Shown here one piece after another: positions 13,871-18,342 of a stretch of DNA of 21,709 nt. The DNA lies in the IMG/VR virus record IMGVR_UViG_3300010885_030879, positions 1 through 21,709 of that record; one strand, written 5' to 3'. This stretch comes from a virus. The notes under the pieces are model-generated. The model saw nothing but the letters and a program-made list of their open reading frames with translations. It made no database searches and was not told the DNA's origin. The position numbers and the translations under genes are program-made. Position 1 is the stretch's first letter, and every line of letters begins with the position of its first letter.

Positions 13871-13916
13871 CCATGGTTCGACTCCATGGGAAGGGTATAC
13901 CCCACCACAAGTGGGG
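13871..13916 (+). ncRNA. tRNA-like mini-element E0 (weaker member)
   Basis: A T-arm-like hairpin with stem CCATGG (13871-13876)/CCATGG (13884-13889) and loop TTCGACT gives the tRNA box GGTTCGACTCC. A second hairpin, CCCCAC/GTGGGG (13900-13905 with 13911-13916), follows before the ribosome site of the 118-aa gene. The order T-arm, small hairpin, ribosome site matches elements E1-E4. The outer GTAG/CTAC stem of those copies is not clear here; ACCC and GGGT further out may replace it. Confidence 0.4.
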
Positions 13917-13964
13917 ACACGGGGAGCCTACCCCATAACAAAAGGCATTCAGTAGGAGTCTATT

Positions 13965-14321
13965 GTGACTATCGAACAAATCAAAGCAGACAACACCCGC
14001 CTATCGTTCACCGGGACAGACATGTCCCACCGTGGCACCATTGAGGCGTTTCTGTGGCTGGCATCAAAGGCCTGCATCACACGGGAAGTGAAGCTCATCA
14101 ACGCTGCCCTTGGCAAGATGATCGAGTTGGACGCGGACGGAACTTTCAGCATGCTCTGCACCCCAGAGCAAGGTGAAGCAGTTGTGTTCGTGTCGGATGC
14201 CCTCAAGGCATTCGGTGAGACAGTGTCGGCACGTAAGGAGCGGGTGGCCCTACAGGGTACTTCACTCGCTATCAGTGAGTTGCGTGCAAAGGTGGCTCGC
14301 AACGCAGAGTACGACTTCTAA
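13965..14321 (+). CDS. 118-aa hypothetical protein, first right-arm gene
   Basis: The start is GTG at 13965 with AGGAG 6 nt upstream. The product MTIEQIKADNTRLSFTGTDM continues as a mostly helical, Ala/Glu-rich protein (EAFLWLASKACITREVKLIN, DALKAFGETVSARKERVAL) ending RNAEYDF. GC content and GC-ending codons look higher than in the left arm, as in the next few genes. It is the first cistron of the rightward operon and stands alone between elements E0 and E1, so it may be strongly expressed early. I recognise no family, and there is no signal peptide, membrane segment or cysteine motif. Confidence 0.8.
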   Translation: MTIEQIKADNTRLSFTGTDMSHRGTIEAFLWLASKACITREVKLINAALGKMIELDADGTFSMLCTPEQGEAVVFVSDALKAFGETVSARKERVALQGTSLAISELRAKVARNAEYDF

Positions 14322-14348
14322 GTCGTAGAGTTTCACTATCTGGGAGTT

Positions 14349-14437
14349 TGGTGCATCTCCGGCAAAATGCACCACTATCTAGGTAGAGCTGGTGTTTACT
14401 AAGGTTCGATTCCTTAGCTACTAATCCCAACAGGGGA
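14349..14437 (+). ncRNA. tRNA-like mini-element E1 with upstream hairpin
   Basis: A perfect 8-bp hairpin, TGGTGCAT/ATGCACCA (14349-14356 with 14367-14374), precedes the element. The element itself has outer strand GGTAG (14382-14386), linker AGCTGGTGTTTA, T-stem CTAAGG/CCTTAG (14399-14404 with 14412-14417), loop TTCGATT and outer strand CTACT (14418-14422). A short hairpin TCCC/GGGA (14425-28 with 14434-37) follows, then GAGGAG and the ATG of the 147-aa gene. GGTAGAGC resembles a tRNA D-arm and GGTTCGATTCC is the canonical T-arm box, but no anticodon arm fits between them. Confidence 0.6.
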
Positions 14438-14455
14438 CGTTTGAGGAGAAAGACA

Positions 14456-14899
14456 ATGGACGGAAAAGCTGGACTTTTGTTCTGGCTGGCAGAGCGTGAG
14501 CGGAAGCCGTTCACGATCGAGCAGTCGGACTTGGTAGGCATTGCAACATCGCATTGCCTACACTTTGATTCCCACGAAATTTTCACGTGGGATCACGAAA
14601 CAGAAATGCAGAACTGGGATCCTCAGTACTGCGACGAGAGTAAACACTCTCACCACTGTTGGCAAATACTGCCCACTGAGTGGGTGGTGTTTGCAAAGGC
14701 AGATATCTGCCGGTGTCCTCAATGCGGGGATAATTGGAATCAACCATTGACAATCAATGGCACGAATCGACTGGGCGTGGAGTACACACTCCATTGTTCA
14801 GTGGACGCAGCTTTGGCTATGGTCAAGGCTGGAATCATCGACGCTTCCGACGTAACAGAATCCGAGTGGTCAAACTGTTACTGTGATTGTGGTTTGTAA
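14456..14899 (+). CDS. 147-aa Cys/His-rich protein, possible zinc binding
   Basis: GAGGAG lies 7 nt before ATG 14456, giving MDGKAGLLFWLAERERKPF; the frame is open slightly upstream from a TTG but lacks a ribosome site there. Cysteine clusters appear as C-R-C-P-Q-C-G at residues 85-91 and C-Y-C-D-C-G-L at the C-terminus (141-147). H63, H66, H67 and C68 lie between (S-K-H-S-H-H-C). Together they suggest one or two metal sites. The middle is Trp-rich. The gene lies between E1 and the 49-aa basic-protein gene, 11 nt away. No family is recognised; an early host-interaction protein is only a guess. Confidence 0.8.
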   Translation: MDGKAGLLFWLAERERKPFTIEQSDLVGIATSHCLHFDSHEIFTWDHETEMQNWDPQYCDESKHSHHCWQILPTEWVVFAKADICRCPQCGDNWNQPLTINGTNRLGVEYTLHCSVDAALAMVKAGIIDASDVTESEWSNCYCDCGL

Positions 14900-14910
14900 G
14901 GAGAAACACT

Positions 14911-15060
14911 ATGAGAGTACGACGACGACATTGCAAAAATTACAGCCGCCGAACGGCGAAGATTGTAAAGGCCCGATTCATGAACAAACTACGAAAGACA
15001 AATCCTGTAGCGTTCGCAGAAATGCGATTATACGAGGCCCCATACAAGCCTCATAGGTAG
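14911..15060 (+). CDS. 49-aa Arg/Lys-rich protein, paralogue of the 65-aa gene
   Basis: AAGGAGAAACACT precedes the ATG at 14911. The product starts MRVRRRHCKNYSRRTAKIVK and ends APYKPHR. It is strongly basic and likely binds RNA or DNA. It aligns with the 65-aa protein at 16385: M-[RK]-V-R-x-R-H at the start, then [KR]-A-R-[FW]-M-N-[KR]-x-R-[KR], a shared Pro three residues later, and K-P-[HF]-R at the end. In both genes the last codons are AGG TAG, and the TAG forms part of the 5' strand of a tRNA-like element. This gene is too short to stand out on coding statistics, but the paralogue supports it. Confidence 0.75.
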   Translation: MRVRRRHCKNYSRRTAKIVKARFMNKLRKTNPVAFAEMRLYEAPYKPHR

Positions 15061-15112
15061 AGCTGGTGCTAACCGGGGTTCGATTCCCCGGCTACTATTT
15101 CCCAATAGGGAA
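15056..15112 (+). ncRNA. tRNA-like mini-element E2
   Basis: Outer strand GGTAG (15056-15060, containing the TAG stop of the 49-aa gene) is followed by linker AGCTGGTGCTAA. The T-stem is CCGGGG/CCCCGG (15073-15078 with 15086-15091) with loop TTCGATT, then outer strand CTACT (15092-15096). A second hairpin TTCCC/GGGAA (15099-15103 with 15108-15112) follows, then GAGGAG and the ATG at 15130. The T-stem differs from E1 and E4 while pairing is kept, which is compensatory variation. Confidence 0.65.
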
Positions 15113-15129
15113 TGTTTGAGGAGAAAGAG

Positions 15130-15324
15130 ATGACAAGTAAGGAATTGATGGTCAAGGCACAGGCGTTGTCGATGGAGATCCTGCTCATGAGGGCAGCAAA
15201 CTACAACTACAAGGCACGTTGGGGAAAGTATGACCCTAACGTCAGCATCGCCAAGGCTGAGGCAGAAGAGAAGCTTGCTGAGATTCAGCATGCATACATC
15301 GTAGCAGTACACGCCTGCAAGTAA
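15130..15324 (+). CDS. 64-aa helical protein after E2
   Basis: ATG 15130 is preceded by GAGGAGAAAGAG; an in-frame ATG at 15112 lies inside the upstream hairpin and is not preferred. The product MTSKELMVKAQALSMEILLM is Ala/Glu/Lys-rich and predicted mostly helical, ending EIQHAYIVAVHACK. It stands alone between E2 and E3. It resembles the 67-aa protein at 16678 in composition and in a shared C-terminal pattern (E-x-L-A-x-I-Q-x-A-Y ... A-x-A). Both follow a basic gene plus a tRNA-like element, which suggests a duplicated cassette. No family is recognised. Confidence 0.75.
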   Translation: MTSKELMVKAQALSMEILLMRAANYNYKARWGKYDPNVSIAKAEAEEKLAEIQHAYIVAVHACK

Positions 15325-15326
15325 AC

Positions 15327-15390
15327 GGTAAAGGTTAAAGGCCTATGTAGGGGTTCGATTCCCCTACTACTATTTCTCCCGCATGGAGAA
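15327..15390 (+). ncRNA. tRNA-like mini-element E3 (divergent 5' half)
   Basis: The T-arm GTAGGGG/CCCCTAC (15347-15353 with 15361-15367) with loop TTCGATT is followed by TACT (15368-15371), which can pair with GGTA at 15327-15330. The 5' linker (AAGGTTAAAGGCCTAT) differs from E1, E2 and E4. A second hairpin TTCTCC/GGAGAA (15374-15379 with 15385-15390) precedes AGGAG and the ATG at 15405. It starts 2 nt after the TAA of the 64-aa gene. Confidence 0.55.
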
Positions 15391-15404
15391 CTTAGGAGAC
15401 ATAG

Positions 15405-15647
15405 ATGAAGAAGTTTGATTCCTGCTTTGTGGCAGGTCCGTTTCGTTGCAAGGTATGGCCAAACCCCAATGGCACACACGTCGTTCGCGTTGAACTCATC
15501 AGTGGTGATGGGCACAACGCACAAGATTACTACCTGACCAACCAAGCATCACTTAGAGATGCAATGGTTGATACTGTCATGACTATATGTCCGACTGGCG
15601 TTCACTACGTCAAGTCACACTTTCAACAGATTGAAGGAAAAAGATAA
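15405..15647 (+). CDS. 80-aa hypothetical protein
   Basis: AGGAG lies 6 nt before the ATG. The product starts MKKFDSCFVAGPFRCKVWPN and looks like a small alpha/beta fold: beta strands near C-K-V-W-P and H-V-V-R-V-E-L, then a helix L-R-D-A-M-V-D-T-V-M. The stop overlaps the next start (TAATG), so it heads a five-gene coupled cluster after element E3. Cysteines at 7, 15 and 62 are not in an obvious metal motif. No family is recognised. Confidence 0.75.
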   Translation: MKKFDSCFVAGPFRCKVWPNPNGTHVVRVELISGDGHNAQDYYLTNQASLRDAMVDTVMTICPTGVHYVKSHFQQIEGKR

Positions 15648-15856
15648 TGAAGAATAAGAAGATTGTTTATGTAGGGAATACCTACTTTTACAAGGATGAG
15701 ATCTTTGTAGCCCTGTGCGTCATCGCCATCGCTTTGATTGGCATGATCTGTGTACAGGTTGGTCGCAAGATGGACGCTGAGGTAGAGCGTCAACGACAGG
15801 TAGAGATGGCGGAGATCGCCAATGACAAACTAGTAAACAATGAGGTAACAAAATGA
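15647..15856 (+). CDS. 69-aa membrane protein
   Basis: MKNKKIVYVGNTYFYKDEIF leads to a clear hydrophobic helix, F-V-A-L-C-V-I-A-I-A-L-I-G-M-I-C-V, at about residues 20-36. A charged helical tail (RKMDAEVERQRQVEMAEIAN) follows and could form a coiled coil. One transmembrane segment with a cytoplasmic coiled tail is predicted. It overlaps both neighbours (TAATG upstream, ATGA downstream), so it is translated together with them. No family is recognised. Confidence 0.75.
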   Translation: MKNKKIVYVGNTYFYKDEIFVALCVIAIALIGMICVQVGRKMDAEVERQRQVEMAEIANDKLVNNEVTK

Positions 15857-16290
15857 ACATTGAACACAATGTGGCATATAGCGTAATCGAAACTTACGGT
15901 GAAGACCGTGAGTACAGCAAGCCAGCGTATAGCGTCTTTCATGGCTCGTATAACACGATCGAAGAGGCTACACGTAGACTGGGTGAAGTATTACCCGATG
16001 ACTTCTACGACTATGTAGACACACGCTTCTTCTTCAGTAAAGAAGATATTGACTGGATGAAGTCATTCATTGACTTTAGTGAGTACACATTCACAGTACT
16101 TGAAGATAGCTTTGAGGATGACTGCATCTCAAACGGCAAGCATCCAAAACTTACGCCAGAACAACGACTCAAGTTCTTCTCTCGTAAACAATTCCAATCG
16201 TTTGACAATGGCGAAGTCGGCTACACATTCCACATCGTGGAAAACATCTTAGTTCCAACAAAGGTAATCGAATGCAACACAGGAAAATGA
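15853..16290 (+). CDS. 145-aa acidic protein
   Basis: The ATG overlaps the upstream gene's TGA (ATGA). The product MNIEHNVAYSVIETYGEDRE is rich in Asp/Glu and aromatic residues (DDFYDYVDTRFFFSKEDIDW), then D-S-F-E-D-D-C. A more basic stretch follows (LTPEQRLKFFSRKQFQ), and the end is F-H-I-V-E-N-I-L-V-P. Strong acidity in a small early-region protein could point to a DNA mimic or inhibitor, but that is speculation. Its stop overlaps the ATG of a 33-aa membrane gene. No family is recognised. Confidence 0.75.
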   Translation: MNIEHNVAYSVIETYGEDREYSKPAYSVFHGSYNTIEEATRRLGEVLPDDFYDYVDTRFFFSKEDIDWMKSFIDFSEYTFTVLEDSFEDDCISNGKHPKLTPEQRLKFFSRKQFQSFDNGEVGYTFHIVENILVPTKVIECNTGK

Positions 16291-16388
16291 CCAAGCAAGA
16301 GGAACAACGCGAACTCCTAGACATCTTCATCCACTTGATGTGGATTCTTTTATTCATCGTAGGCGTAACATCGGAGTTTTATCTATGA
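16287..16388 (+). CDS. 33-aa membrane peptide
   Basis: The ATG overlaps the upstream TGA, and its own TGA overlaps the next ATG (ATGA at both ends). The product is MTKQEEQRELLDIFIHL followed by the hydrophobic run W-I-L-L-F-I-V-G-V and a short S-E-F-Y-L end. A single short transmembrane helix is likely. The double overlap is the main evidence that this tiny frame is real. No function is assigned. Confidence 0.6.
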   Translation: MTKQEEQRELLDIFIHLMWILLFIVGVTSEFYL

Positions 16389-16582
16389 AAGTCAGAGTAA
16401 GACACTACCCATTTAAAAAACTGACTTACAAAATGGCAGGAAGCAGACGCATTACGAATAGAGGCAACTGCGCAAAACGTAAGTTGTACCGCGCAAGATG
16501 GATGAATCGTTGTCGGCGCGAACGCCCAGAAGAGTACTTATGGCATCGCAACCTCGAAGCAAGATGGAAACCATTCAGGTAG
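16385..16582 (+). CDS. 65-aa Arg/Lys-rich protein, paralogue of the 49-aa gene
   Basis: Coupled to the 33-aa gene by ATGA. The product MKVRVRHYPFKKLTYKMAGS continues very basic (R-R-I-T-N-R-G-N-C-A-K-R-K-L-Y-R-A-R-W-M-N-R) and ends RWKPFR. It aligns with the 49-aa protein at the start, in the centre (A-R-[FW]-M-N-[KR]) and at the end, and is 16 residues longer. Such charge suggests nucleic-acid binding. The terminal AGG TAG is shared with the other gene, and its TAG is part of the outer stem of element E4. This raises the possibility that the protein binds or is regulated by that RNA. Confidence 0.75.
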   Translation: MKVRVRHYPFKKLTYKMAGSRRITNRGNCAKRKLYRARWMNRCRRERPEEYLWHRNLEARWKPFR

Positions 16583-16661
16583 AGCTGATGCTAATCCGAG
16601 GTTTGATTCCTCGGCTACCCTTTCTCCCTAGTGGAGAAAATTGGCTGACAACCTACTGTCA
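16578..16661 (+). ncRNA. tRNA-like mini-element E4
   Basis: Outer strand GGTAG (16578-16582, containing the TAG stop) is followed by linker AGCTGATGCTAAT. The T-stem is CCGAGG/CCTCGG (16596-16601 with 16609-16614) with loop TTTGATT, then outer strand CTACC (16615-16619). Here the outer stem is a full 5 bp (GGTAG/CTACC); in E1 and E2 the last pair is G-U. A 7-bp hairpin TTTCTCC/GGAGAAA (16621-16627 with 16633-16639) follows. A small TGACA/TGTCA repeat lies at 16646-16661, before the 67-aa gene. Confidence 0.65.
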
Positions 16662-16677
16662 ATAACAAGGTAACACA

Positions 16678-16881
16678 ATGAAACAAGAGAAACAAAAACT
16701 AGAGCAAGCAAAACTTGCCGCGTATGAATACTTCTCGTCTAAAACAGACGACAGTGTTCTTGTACGATGCCGAAAGCAACGGGAACTGGCATCAGACATT
16801 CAACAGGCCGAACAAGCCTACAACACCGCTTACGCTATCGCAATGCGTAACAAGTTCTTACAATTAGGAGACAACATTTAA
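16678..16881 (+). CDS. 67-aa helical protein after E4
   Basis: The ribosome site AAGGTAACACA precedes ATG 16678. The product MKQEKQKLEQAKLAAYEYFS is Ala/Gln/Lys-rich and predicted nearly all helical, with A-S-D-I-Q-Q-A-E-Q-A-Y and a C-terminal M-R-N-K-F-L-Q-L-G-D-N-I. Its stop overlaps the next start (TAATG). It occupies the same relative place as the 64-aa gene at 15130 (basic gene, tRNA-like element, helical gene) and may be its distant paralogue. No family is recognised. Confidence 0.75.
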   Translation: MKQEKQKLEQAKLAAYEYFSSKTDDSVLVRCRKQRELASDIQQAEQAYNTAYAIAMRNKFLQLGDNI

Positions 16882-17198
16882 TGCAACCACTATTTACAGC
16901 CAAAGAATTGGCCATGATCGAGAAGATCCGTCAACGTGCTATCGATAGAGCTAATCGTAAACCTAAGCCTAAGTTGTTCATCGACCGGCTGAATAAGTCT
17001 GAATACAAGTATCTTGTATCTGCAATAAGCCGACAGTTACTGTGTAAGGCAGCAGATACAACACAGGCACAATCATATGTCAGTGAACGTGTAGCAGAAA
17101 AGCTTCTTGTTGCGCTGGACGTAAGCCCACAAGAGCATGGAGTACTACTCAAATTTGCTAAACTAGTGGCTGATAAACAGGCTAAGCTCAGTCAATAG
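16881..17198 (+). CDS. 105-aa basic helical protein
   Basis: The ATG overlaps the upstream stop (TAATG). The product MQPLFTAKELAMIEKIRQRA continues with a Lys/Arg/Pro-rich stretch (ANRKPKPKLFIDRL) and then helices (V-S-A-I-S-R-Q-L-L and S-E-R-V-A-E-K-L-L-V-A-L). It ends LAKLSQ-like, with K-Q-A-K-L-S-Q. No family is recognised. Its TAG stop at 17196-17198 lies at the base of the 5' strand of the switch-like structure that follows, so termination here could influence that fold. Confidence 0.75.
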   Translation: MQPLFTAKELAMIEKIRQRAIDRANRKPKPKLFIDRLNKSEYKYLVSAISRQLLCKAADTTQAQSYVSERVAEKLLVALDVSPQEHGVLLKFAKLVADKQAKLSQ

Positions 17199-17275
17199 GG
17201 TGTAGATATTGAGGGGTTTAAATTCTATACCCCTCAATCTTTACTAGGGACGAGGGTGTAAAATCTACTACCCTC
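17197..17275 (+). promoter_or_regulatory. Two mutually exclusive hairpins between gene clusters
   Basis: Hairpin 1 is a perfect 10-bp stem ATTGAGGGGT/ACCCCTCAAT (17208-17217 with 17229-17238). Hairpin 2 is GAGGGT/ACCCTC (17252-17257 with 17270-17275). Alternatively AGGGTGTAGAT (17197-17207) can pair with ATCTACTACCCT (17263-17274, one bulged T), enclosing hairpin 1 and destroying hairpin 2. There is no U-tract after either, so they are not clear terminators. The arrangement looks like an RNA switch between the 105-aa and 75-aa genes. Confidence 0.55.
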
Positions 17276-17311
17276 ATTACATTGAAGGAAAAGCATTAAG
17301 GAACTATAGTA

Positions 17312-17539
17312 ATGGCACGAGAGAAGAAGGCAGATAGAGACATCCGTATCGAGTACCCATCAAGGAAGACTAATGATGGCTCATACAAGGCTAAGTGGGG
17401 AGTCTACGAGTACCTAACACTCGAAGACGGAACCGAAGAGCGAAGATTCTTACAAGAGTATGACTACAAGGATATGGCCACAGAGGCATACCCTACTGCA
17501 ACATTTAAACCAAGCGGATACAAGAGTACAGAAGTATGA
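17312..17539 (+). CDS. 75-aa charged hypothetical protein
   Basis: ATG 17312 is preceded by AAGGAACTATAGTA, a somewhat long ribosome-site spacing. The product MAREKKADRDIRIEYPSRKT continues with W-G-V-Y-E-Y-L-T-L-E-D-G-T-E-E-R-R-F-L and ends SGYKSTEV. It looks like a small beta-rich or disordered charged protein. Its stop overlaps the next gene's ATG. It heads a four-gene coupled cluster after the switch-like hairpins. No family is recognised. Confidence 0.72.
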   Translation: MAREKKADRDIRIEYPSRKTNDGSYKAKWGVYEYLTLEDGTEERRFLQEYDYKDMATEAYPTATFKPSGYKSTEV

Positions 17540-17850
17540 GATTAGAAGTAGGAACACGAGTACGTAATGTACGTAGACCAGACGTCATTGGCGTCGTGAC
17601 ATCACTCGAAGCACCAAACAATATGTGGGCTGTAAGGGCACAGGATCACCGTGTGCTCGTGAAATACCCACGATTGACAAAGTTATCCAATGGTAATTGG
17701 AAAGGAGGCGTGTTGGATGAATTACCTATAGACCTTCTCCCTACCGGAGAAAAGATTCCGGAGGCGTTTGCATCATACAAACGTAGTGGTGATGAAGGAG
17801 GAGTCGGCGCCCGTATCGCCGCATATGAAAGAAAGAGAAAGCGAAAATGA
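17536..17850 (+). CDS. 104-aa protein with small beta-barrel-like start
   Basis: Coupled by ATGA to the 75-aa gene. The N-terminus L-E-V-G-T-R-V-R-N-V-R-R-P-D-V-I-G-V-V-T-S-L has the spacing of KOW/SH3-like barrels (V-G-x-x-V ... G-x-V) that often bind nucleic acid, and W-A-V-R follows. The C-terminus is Gly- and Lys/Arg-rich (GARIAAYERKRKRK). A nucleic-acid role is plausible but rests only on this resemblance. Its stop overlaps the ATG of the 37-aa membrane gene. Confidence 0.75.
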   Translation: MRLEVGTRVRNVRRPDVIGVVTSLEAPNNMWAVRAQDHRVLVKYPRLTKLSNGNWKGGVLDELPIDLLPTGEKIPEAFASYKRSGDEGGVGARIAAYERKRKRK

Positions 17851-17960
17851 TTATAGTTGTATGCATCAGCATTGTATTCATATCCATCCTGTTTCTACTA
17901 GGATGGTTTTTTAATGCAATAGATATCGCACAGGAAGAAATAGACAACGACAATGACTAA
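17847..17960 (+). CDS. 37-aa membrane peptide
   Basis: The ATG overlaps the upstream TGA (ATGA) and the end overlaps the next gene by 8 nt. The product starts MIIVVCISIVFISILFLLGW, a clear transmembrane helix. A short acidic tail ends EEIDNDND. It resembles the 33-aa and 69-aa genes as one of several tiny coupled membrane proteins in this arm. No function is assigned. Confidence 0.68.
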   Translation: MIIVVCISIVFISILFLLGWFFNAIDIAQEEIDNDND

Positions 17961-18342
17961 CATAATTACCCCTCAGAAGCTCGCTGAAGACGTACTGAGG
18001 GCTTATGAGATGGAAGGTGGACTCATCACCAAGGTAGAGTTTCACAACACCTCAAACTTCAGAAGTAAGCATCGCATAAGCATCGATGGCACGATCGATG
18101 TCTACTTGATTATGCATTATGAGTACAGGGCTTCTGCTCAGTATCGCATCACACTGCAAGTGTGGGAAGATAAGTGGCGCATAAAGTCTGAAGGCTACTT
18201 AGATGAGGTCAACATCGAGTACAGCAATGAGACACACAAAGCACCAACTACGTTTATGATTCTCCGATCTTGGGCAGAATTATTTGTAGATGAAGTATTG
18301 AAACTCAAGACCACTGAAGGTCATGGGTTCATCGTAGACTAA
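17953..18342 (+). CDS. 129-aa hypothetical protein before PK1
   Basis: MTNIITPQKLAEDVLRAYEM starts a helix; a beta-rich middle follows (T-I-D-V-Y-L-I-M-H-Y-E-Y-R and Y-R-I-T-L-Q-V-W-E-D-K-W-R). The C-terminal helix is F-M-I-L-R-S-W-A-E-L-F-V-D-E-V-L. The mixed alpha/beta layout is reminiscent of the 163-aa protein at 19496, which also precedes a pseudoknot, but no clear alignment is visible. The TAA at 18340-18342 is followed 6 nt later by pseudoknot PK1. No family is recognised. Confidence 0.78.
   Translation: MTNIITPQKLAEDVLRAYEMEGGLITKVEFHNTSNFRSKHRISIDGTIDVYLIMHYEYRASAQYRITLQVWEDKWRIKSEGYLDEVNIEYSNETHKAPTTFMILRSWAELFVDEVLKLKTTEGHGFIVD

Follow-up and report, generated by a model that had tools for sequence, protein, structure and literature searches.

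In the archaeon Haloferax volcanii, a transfer RNA (tRNA)-like element, or t-element, is described in the accounts of PMC4326828 and PMC3296008 (with Hoelzle et al. 2008 as cited in PMC4326828) as processed by tRNase Z, which gives the 5' end of the 5S ribosomal RNA (rRNA), and as being cut in vitro. In the same species, paired t-elements free a CRISPR RNA (crRNA) in vivo, a release for which RNase P and tRNase Z are held responsible (PMC4326828, PMC3296008), and t-elements in general are stated to be cut by RNase P on their 5' side (PMC4326828). Here we describe elements of this architecture between the protein-coding genes of viruses, starting from one virus record of 21,709 nucleotides (nt), IMG/VR IMGVR_UViG_3300010885_030879, the whole of which is called the window below. 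This 21.7-kilobase (kb) record has a leftward arm and, from about 13.9 kb, a rightward operon of small genes, in which four elements, E1 to E4, stand between cistrons.

A single RNA family, widespread in phages and haloarchaeal viruses, includes E1, E2 and E4 as complete members and E3 as a fourth. Judging from the sequences, its closest known counterpart is the haloarchaeal 5S t-element; what is new is the extensive relocation of this already known kind of t-element to junctions between phage genes. With a probability of about 0.6, we take E1 to E4 to be t-element-like processing sites at which RNase P and RNase Z would split the phage message, leaving the next cistron with a 5' hairpin.

Fold and covariation of the mini-tRNA elements

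Two covariance models underlie the comparisons. R1 was built from E1, E2, E4 and their relatives, with E3 outside the training set, whereas R2 was built from 20 elements of other phages and haloarchaea and holds no window sequence. The elements and their scores (E, expectation value) are as follows.

14382..14422, + strand: mini-tRNA element E1; 60 bits with R1, 37 bits with R2 (E 6e-6, E1 not in training); acceptor GGTAG (14382-14386)/CTACT (14418-14422), mini D-hairpin AGC-UGGU-GUU, T-stem CTAAGG/CCTTAG, T-loop UUCGAUU
15056..15096, + strand: mini-tRNA element E2; 65 bits with R1, 37 bits with R2 (E 6e-6); T-stem CCGGGG/CCCCGG
15327..15371, + strand: mini-tRNA element E3, whose longer linker contains GG; 39 bits with R1 (E 2.5e-10); acceptor GGTA (15327-15330)/TACT (15368-15371), 4 base pairs (bp), T-stem GTAGGGG/CCCCTAC, 7 bp
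16578..16619, + strand: mini-tRNA element E4, with UGAU and UUUGAUU (A19-U56 replaces G19-C56); 62 bits with R1, E 0.0035 with R2

The fold common to the family consists of a 5-bp acceptor stem, a mini D-hairpin of 2-3 bp whose loop contains GG, and a T-arm made of a 6-bp stem and the loop UUCGAUU; it lacks an anticodon arm. In the alignment of the window group it takes the form of an acceptor GGTAG/CTACY and a mini D-hairpin (A)GC-UGGU-GC(U), joined by a short linker to a variable 6-bp T-stem, with two G-C pairs closing the 7-nt T-loop UUCGAUU. The GG of the D-hairpin loop corresponds to the one that contacts the T-loop in tRNA. A previous sequence-only reading of the window had noted GGTAGAGCTGRTG, the T-arm and the CTACT or CTACC closing GGTAG in E1, E2 and E4, all present exactly as claimed; its description of a bare acceptor plus T-arm minihelix with a bulge has to be given up, since a D-loop mimic is present. 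Its argument that a linker of 12-13 nt makes an anticodon arm impossible is borne out, the linkers measuring 11-14 nt with room for a mini D-hairpin only; this linker is not empty, however, and can form a mini D-hairpin with a GG loop. E3, which had been credited with the T-arm only, does share that arm and also possesses the acceptor of its own listed above. Acceptor and T-stem stack into about 11-12 bp with a canonical 7-nt T-loop, as in the t-element: 5 + 6 bp in E1, E2 and E4, 4 + 7 bp in E3, and 5 + 6 bp in the archaeon Halomicrobium katesii.

Acceptor, D and T stems all covary, in keeping with the earlier observation that T-stem sequences vary while their pairing is kept. For 19 elements of the window group and of a group containing cyanophage Syn5, standard pairs occupy 96% of pair cells, double changes are found at 10 of the 15 pairs, and the covariation score is 0.429 against 0.156 for shuffled alignments, with none of 500 shuffles as good. 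Scores rise to 0.99 versus 0.21 for 20 diverse elements (98.4% standard pair cells), and reach 0.837 versus 0.173 for 96 distinct aligned rows (98.3% of cells paired), an alignment that leans to structure. Examples are the acceptor GATAG/CTATC in the relative L008 and the D-stem changes from AGC/GCU to GGC/GCC (L005, L008) or to AAC/GUU (L001, L012). In E4 and its orthologues, the change of the D-loop GG to GA is matched by a change of T-loop C56 to U, a compensatory version of the tRNA elbow pair G19-C56. The A19-U56 pairing also occurs in L005 (element L005b) and in L516, the latter found by a dedicated A19/U56 scan whose matches were for the most part ordinary tRNAs; U56 is present in every clear A19 member (E4, L005b, L516), and a doubtful A19 match, L563, has C56.

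Acceptor covariation in A2-A4 is partly a product of sequence choice; the unbiased test of the acceptor is shuffling of the upstream strand. Acceptor pairing was left out of a core search pattern, GCTGGTGY N3-10 GGTTCGATTCC, and an acceptor of at least 5 bp nevertheless stood beside the core in 58 of the 82 distinct matches listed, against a mean of 5.9 and a maximum of 14 with shuffled upstream strands. Its sequence is unconstrained (GGCAG/CTGCC, CTGAT/ATCAG, GACAG/CTGTC, CCGGC/GCCGG and others). GGTAGAGC was considered as the 3' half of a usual tRNA D-arm, but in E1-E4 it forms an acceptor stem with CTACY, and in other phages its place is taken by quite different acceptors, so this reading was rejected for E1-E4. 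The acceptor plus T stack measures 11-13 bp in 63 of 70 matches; in tRNA, RNase P and RNase Z measure 12 bp. All 19 variants outside the seed pattern keep the GG, while the D-stem around it varies (GC/GC, AC/GU, AA/UU, CU/AG, CA/UG).

Distribution in viruses and haloarchaea

In a search of 261 kb, the window-free model R2 recovered E1, E2 and E4, whose resemblance to the family is therefore not due to chance, together with elements in Syn5, S-TIP28 and His2 virus; it also matches Clostridioides difficile phage phiC2. The window version of the motif (GGTAGAGCTGRTG...GGTTYGATTCC) is present in 13 further viral stretches and has no match in 84,980 species genomes, and the core pattern without acceptor has at least 120 matches in viral contigs. 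T7-like cyanophages form one group, with the element lying between the scaffold and major capsid genes in Syn5 and S-TIP28; in His2 virus it ends 7 nt upstream of the GTG of open reading frame (ORF) 23. Recurrence in other phages and covariation, two of the points on which the sequence-only reading had staked itself in advance, were thus both found, by covariance-model searches and pair statistics.

The same core pattern matches the rRNA operon of Halomicrobium katesii, where CCGAC-GCUGGUGUCUA-UCGCGG-UUCGAUU-CCGCGA-GUCGG is followed about 3 nt later by the start of 5S rRNA. With R2, an element with the same UGG mini D-hairpin was found before 5S in 17 further genomes of the same haloarchaeal order.

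Other searches delimit the family. No family of Rfam 15 scored above its cut-off at E1-E4, only T-arm scraps matching beta_tmRNA at 12-14 bits (cut-off 84), and ARAGORN called no tRNA at any of E0-E4 (E0 is a T-arm upstream of E1, treated below). DNA similarity to E4 was sought in phage isolates and relatives were sought via a neighbouring gene of 118 amino acids (aa), with no match in either case. Relatives of a phosphoesterase were found at 45 loci; R1 detected full elements in only 5 of the 20 records searched, with a T-arm alone in a sixth, so that the set of elements turns over fast. Searches of the open literature (subscription papers fell outside them) turned up no account of a family like this in phages.

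Descent from decayed tRNA genes or attachment sites can be considered at this point. D-loop and T-arm motifs are present, and some viral tRNA fragments serve as attP sites (PMC8707807). Yet this explanation is hardly credible in view of the strong covariation, the several copies per genome, the free acceptor sequence and the lack of species-genome matches to the window version, and the covariation tests refute it for the family. A tRNA-derived attachment site proper, that is, a single copy equal to the 3' half of a host tRNA, is ruled out by several diverged copies per genome and by the missing genome match.

Several further loci deserve mention. L450/L585 and L611 (Halorubrum aquaticum genome) show a mini-tRNA, a hairpin and then the ATG of a protein gene, possibly a provirus or a cellular messenger RNA (mRNA) t-element. 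L318:1640-2845 (- strand) and L351:9276-10276 (- strand) are intergenic arrays of mini-tRNAs, each followed by a short hairpin and sharing a common acceptor (GUAAGCAUA/UAUGCUUAU), with no sizeable ORFs; they may be a small-RNA cluster. For HF1-group haloviruses, PMC7230728 reports an aberrant tRNA-Pro prediction that is conserved ahead of the large terminase gene and has no assigned function; it could be a relative of the mini-tRNA elements.

Position at gene junctions and putative cutting

Positions were counted for 60 distinct viral elements, taking as a gene start a ribosome site and start codon that open an ORF of 30 codons or more; genes were called by simple ORF rules, with no gene finder, a weakness that the controls share. 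Such a start lies within 60 nt downstream of 31 of the 60 elements, as compared with 3/60 on the opposite strand and 18.6% of random same-strand positions. In contigs of the same type, the count for full tRNAs is 78 of 539 (elements versus tRNAs, Fisher p = 4e-10). An ORF stop falls at -45 to +12 of the element 5' end in 34 of 57 cases, versus 21% at random, and at multi-copy loci all copies are on one strand. In the window, the UAG stop of the upstream ORF sits inside the GGUAG of the element itself in E2 (15058-15060) and E4 (16580-16582), an arrangement also seen in the relatives L008 and L005.

Each of E1 to E4 is followed, 0-3 nt downstream, by a short hairpin whose stem differs per copy and then by a ribosome site and start, an order that the sequence-only reading had correctly noticed:

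14425..14436, + strand: hairpin UCCC-AACA-GGGG directly 3' of E1 (from the sequence); relatives have a hairpin at the same place with another stem
14443..14458, + strand: GAGGAG ribosome site and ATG (14456) of the gene after E1 (from the sequence)
15099..15112, + strand: hairpin UUCCC-AAUA-GGGAA 3' of E2 (centroid structure; relatives)
15118..15132, + strand: GAGGAG ribosome site and ATG (15130) after E2 (from the sequence)
15374..15390, + strand: hairpin UUCUCC-CGCAU-GGAGAA 3' of E3 (from the sequence; centroid structure)
15394-15398, + strand: AGGAG ribosome site after the E3 hairpin, with ATG at 15405 (from the sequence)
16621..16639, + strand: hairpin UUUCUCC-CUAGU-GGAGAAA 3' of E4, with the next ATG at 16678 (from the sequence; centroid structure)

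Of the 60 elements, 19 have a hairpin of 5 bp or more that begins no further than 6 nt downstream, against 3.9 expected and 45 of 545 (8%) full tRNAs.

The placement of stop and start codons bears on a reading in which an uncut tRNA mimic, recognised by the ribosome or a tRNA-binding protein, would control translation in cis, setting initiation downstream or termination at the UAG in GGUAG. The stop codons within the acceptor strand (E2, E4, L008, L005) and the nearness to start codons fit it, but many copies lie 60-150 nt from a start or do not overlap a stop, and identity with a 5S t-element that stands upstream of a non-translated RNA points to processing instead, which makes such control improbable. 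Another reading regards the elements as recombination junctions or spreading repeats, whose shared sequence between small genes would allow the swapping of gene cassettes; elements do recur at junctions while the gene content between them differs (window phage, L005, L008). We find this very unlikely, since stem sequences differ with pairing kept, which weakens any shared homology, and since the restriction to one strand, the covariation and the elbow pair demand a role at the RNA level.

Cleavage by RNase Z is blocked by CCA. This triplet directly follows 1 of the 60 elements, whereas it follows 333 of 545 full phage tRNAs, counts that concern encoded CCA and not CCA added after transcription. 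The phage elements are in the right orientation, located so that cleavage would release the cistron downstream, and without an encoded CCA that would stop RNase Z. Released mini-tRNAs could instead be the product itself, acting as decoys or sponges for RNase P, RNase Z, modification enzymes or EF-Tu, or diverting host tRNA-directed defences, with the intergenic place a mere means of transcription and excision. An elbow kept while the anticodon is lost would suit binding without decoding, the ORF-free arrays of L318 and L351 fit such a use, and another class common in phages, anticodon-less tRNA-likes that retain a full D-arm, shows no enrichment before ribosome sites. We nevertheless hold this unlikely for the family: in most genomes the copies stand singly, with a stop codon on one side and a ribosome site on the other, a placement for which an RNA acting in trans has no need, and CCA is not encoded. 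Some phages may use the small RNA itself, as the arrays suggest.

Processing remains our preferred reading: the phage elements are probably cut sites because they are placed before ribosome sites and because their closest counterpart is the tRNase Z-cut 5S element. According to this model, the mini-tRNA would fold in the long message after the upstream ribosome has passed the stop codon, often within the acceptor strand, its acceptor, mini D-hairpin and T-arm joining at a tRNA-like elbow with the D-loop GG against the T-loop. Host RNase P would then cut before the first acceptor base (before 14382 in E1), and the cut by host RNase Z would fall one unpaired base beyond the acceptor (after 14423 in E1). 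These cuts would divide the message into smaller units, the downstream one starting at the hairpin that follows the element, and, lying ahead of the ribosome site, this 5' hairpin would slow decay that depends on the 5' end.

Several observations weigh against this model. Minimum-free-energy folding of the five E0-E4 regions is no better than for shuffles (z -0.4 to -1.7), and the minimum-free-energy fold of E1 differs from the mini-tRNA fold; support for the fold comes from covariation and recurrence, with no contribution from folding energy. The exchange of G19-C56 probably happened only once, and is counted once, because E4, L005b and L516 are one lineage. The window stack of 11 bp falls 1 bp short of tRNA, although the Halomicrobium 5S element likewise has 5 + 6 bp. 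No ribosome-site start is found even within 250 nt for 13 of the 60 elements, and L318 and L351 carry their runs of mini-tRNAs without ORFs between. Hairpins are frequent on the 5' side too (15/60), so that the link with a 3' hairpin is clear in the window group and not exclusive in general. Finally, other predicted tRNA-like elements of Haloferax were reportedly left uncut in vitro in a follow-up study, and a tRNA-like shape is thus no guarantee of cleavage.

Two further features precede E1 in the operon:

13871..13889, + strand: E0, a T-arm only (CCATGG UUCGACU CCATGG), matching R1 model positions 19-37 with 13 bits (E = 0.04 in the window)
14350..14373, + strand: a separate hairpin GGTGCAT...ATGCACC upstream of E1 (from the sequence), conserved in relatives

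E0 shares the T-arm, as had been claimed, and is followed by a hairpin, a ribosome site and a GTG; with only the T-arm matched, its status as a full element is doubtful. A counterpart is kept as an atypical element in L008 (L008:373). The hairpin GGTGCAT...ATGCACC recurs upstream of both L005a and L001b, and in L008 it follows the 119-aa gene. A second conserved stretch, TTGGCTGACAACCTACTGTCAAT (window 16640-16663), separates the E4 hairpin from the start codon after it; this stretch is near-identical after L005b and similar after L001c, and resembles an extra leader motif. Ten proteins of the right-arm operon (window 13965-18342, + strand) were compared with PHROG families and none matched. 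The leftward arm holds one copy of a tRNA-Leu and genes that, from their translations, we take to encode terminase, ThyX, dUTPase and SSB.

If the processing model is true, host RNase P and RNase Z, regarded as tRNA enzymes, are routine processors of phage mRNA, and a signal hitherto known from a single archaeal rRNA operon is distributed over phages of distant hosts. The chances appear evenly balanced that this amounts to a general, undescribed layer of phage gene expression, in which haloarchaeal viruses and unrelated phages with hosts among the cyanobacteria, Clostridioides and other bacteria put mini-tRNAs between cistrons, to be cut by host tRNA enzymes into units with hairpin-capped 5' ends, as in haloarchaeal 5S release. 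The model would explain odd non-coding stretches such as the one before the Syn5 capsid gene, it predicts exact RNA ends that can be checked in existing RNA sequencing data from infections, and it offers compact natural processing tags for synthetic operons. The elements also give a searchable RNA family that has no Rfam entry.

Relation to known systems

T7 divides its messages between cistrons at RNase III processing sites, which are plain long hairpins and depend on a different enzyme, whereas Syn5, a T7-like cyanophage, has a mini-tRNA before its capsid gene. Mitochondrial t-elements, to which the sequence-only reading had compared the elements, are likewise tRNA-like cut marks in polycistronic messages; we know of none that shares the mini-tRNA fold, and the archaeal 5S t-element is closer. 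Anticodon-less tRNA-likes with a 7-bp acceptor and a full 4-bp D-arm share the T-arm, the acceptor and the missing anticodon arm with the mini-tRNAs, but differ in that full D-arm and are a distinct class because they are not enriched before ribosome sites (14/64). They are common in phages (93 IMG/VR contigs, for instance L030, L031, L034, L064 and L091), with D-arm and T-arm joined by 6-14 nt; a relaxed GGTAGAGY...T-arm scan returned mostly tRNAs and members of this other class. Known non-tRNA substrates of RNase P in phages and bacteria comprise operon mRNAs, phage M3 RNA, C4 antisense RNA and T4 gene 32 mRNA (PMC11143913). They resemble the proposed role, as non-tRNA phage or operon RNAs cut by host RNase P, but are single cases of differing structure that do not recur with covariation at gene junctions.

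The haloarchaeal 5S t-element has in common with the phage elements an acceptor, a mini D-hairpin around UGG and a UUCGAUU T-arm without anticodon arm, dimensions of 5 + 6 bp with a linker of about 11-14 nt, and a position adjoining the RNA that it would release; one covariance model, R2, detects both. As the phage elements show the same core pattern and R2 matches the 5S-adjacent haloarchaeal elements, they share the fold of the reported processing signal. They differ from the 5S t-element in preceding protein genes, in occurring in several copies per genome, and in often holding the upstream stop codon, most being then followed by a hairpin or a ribosome site.

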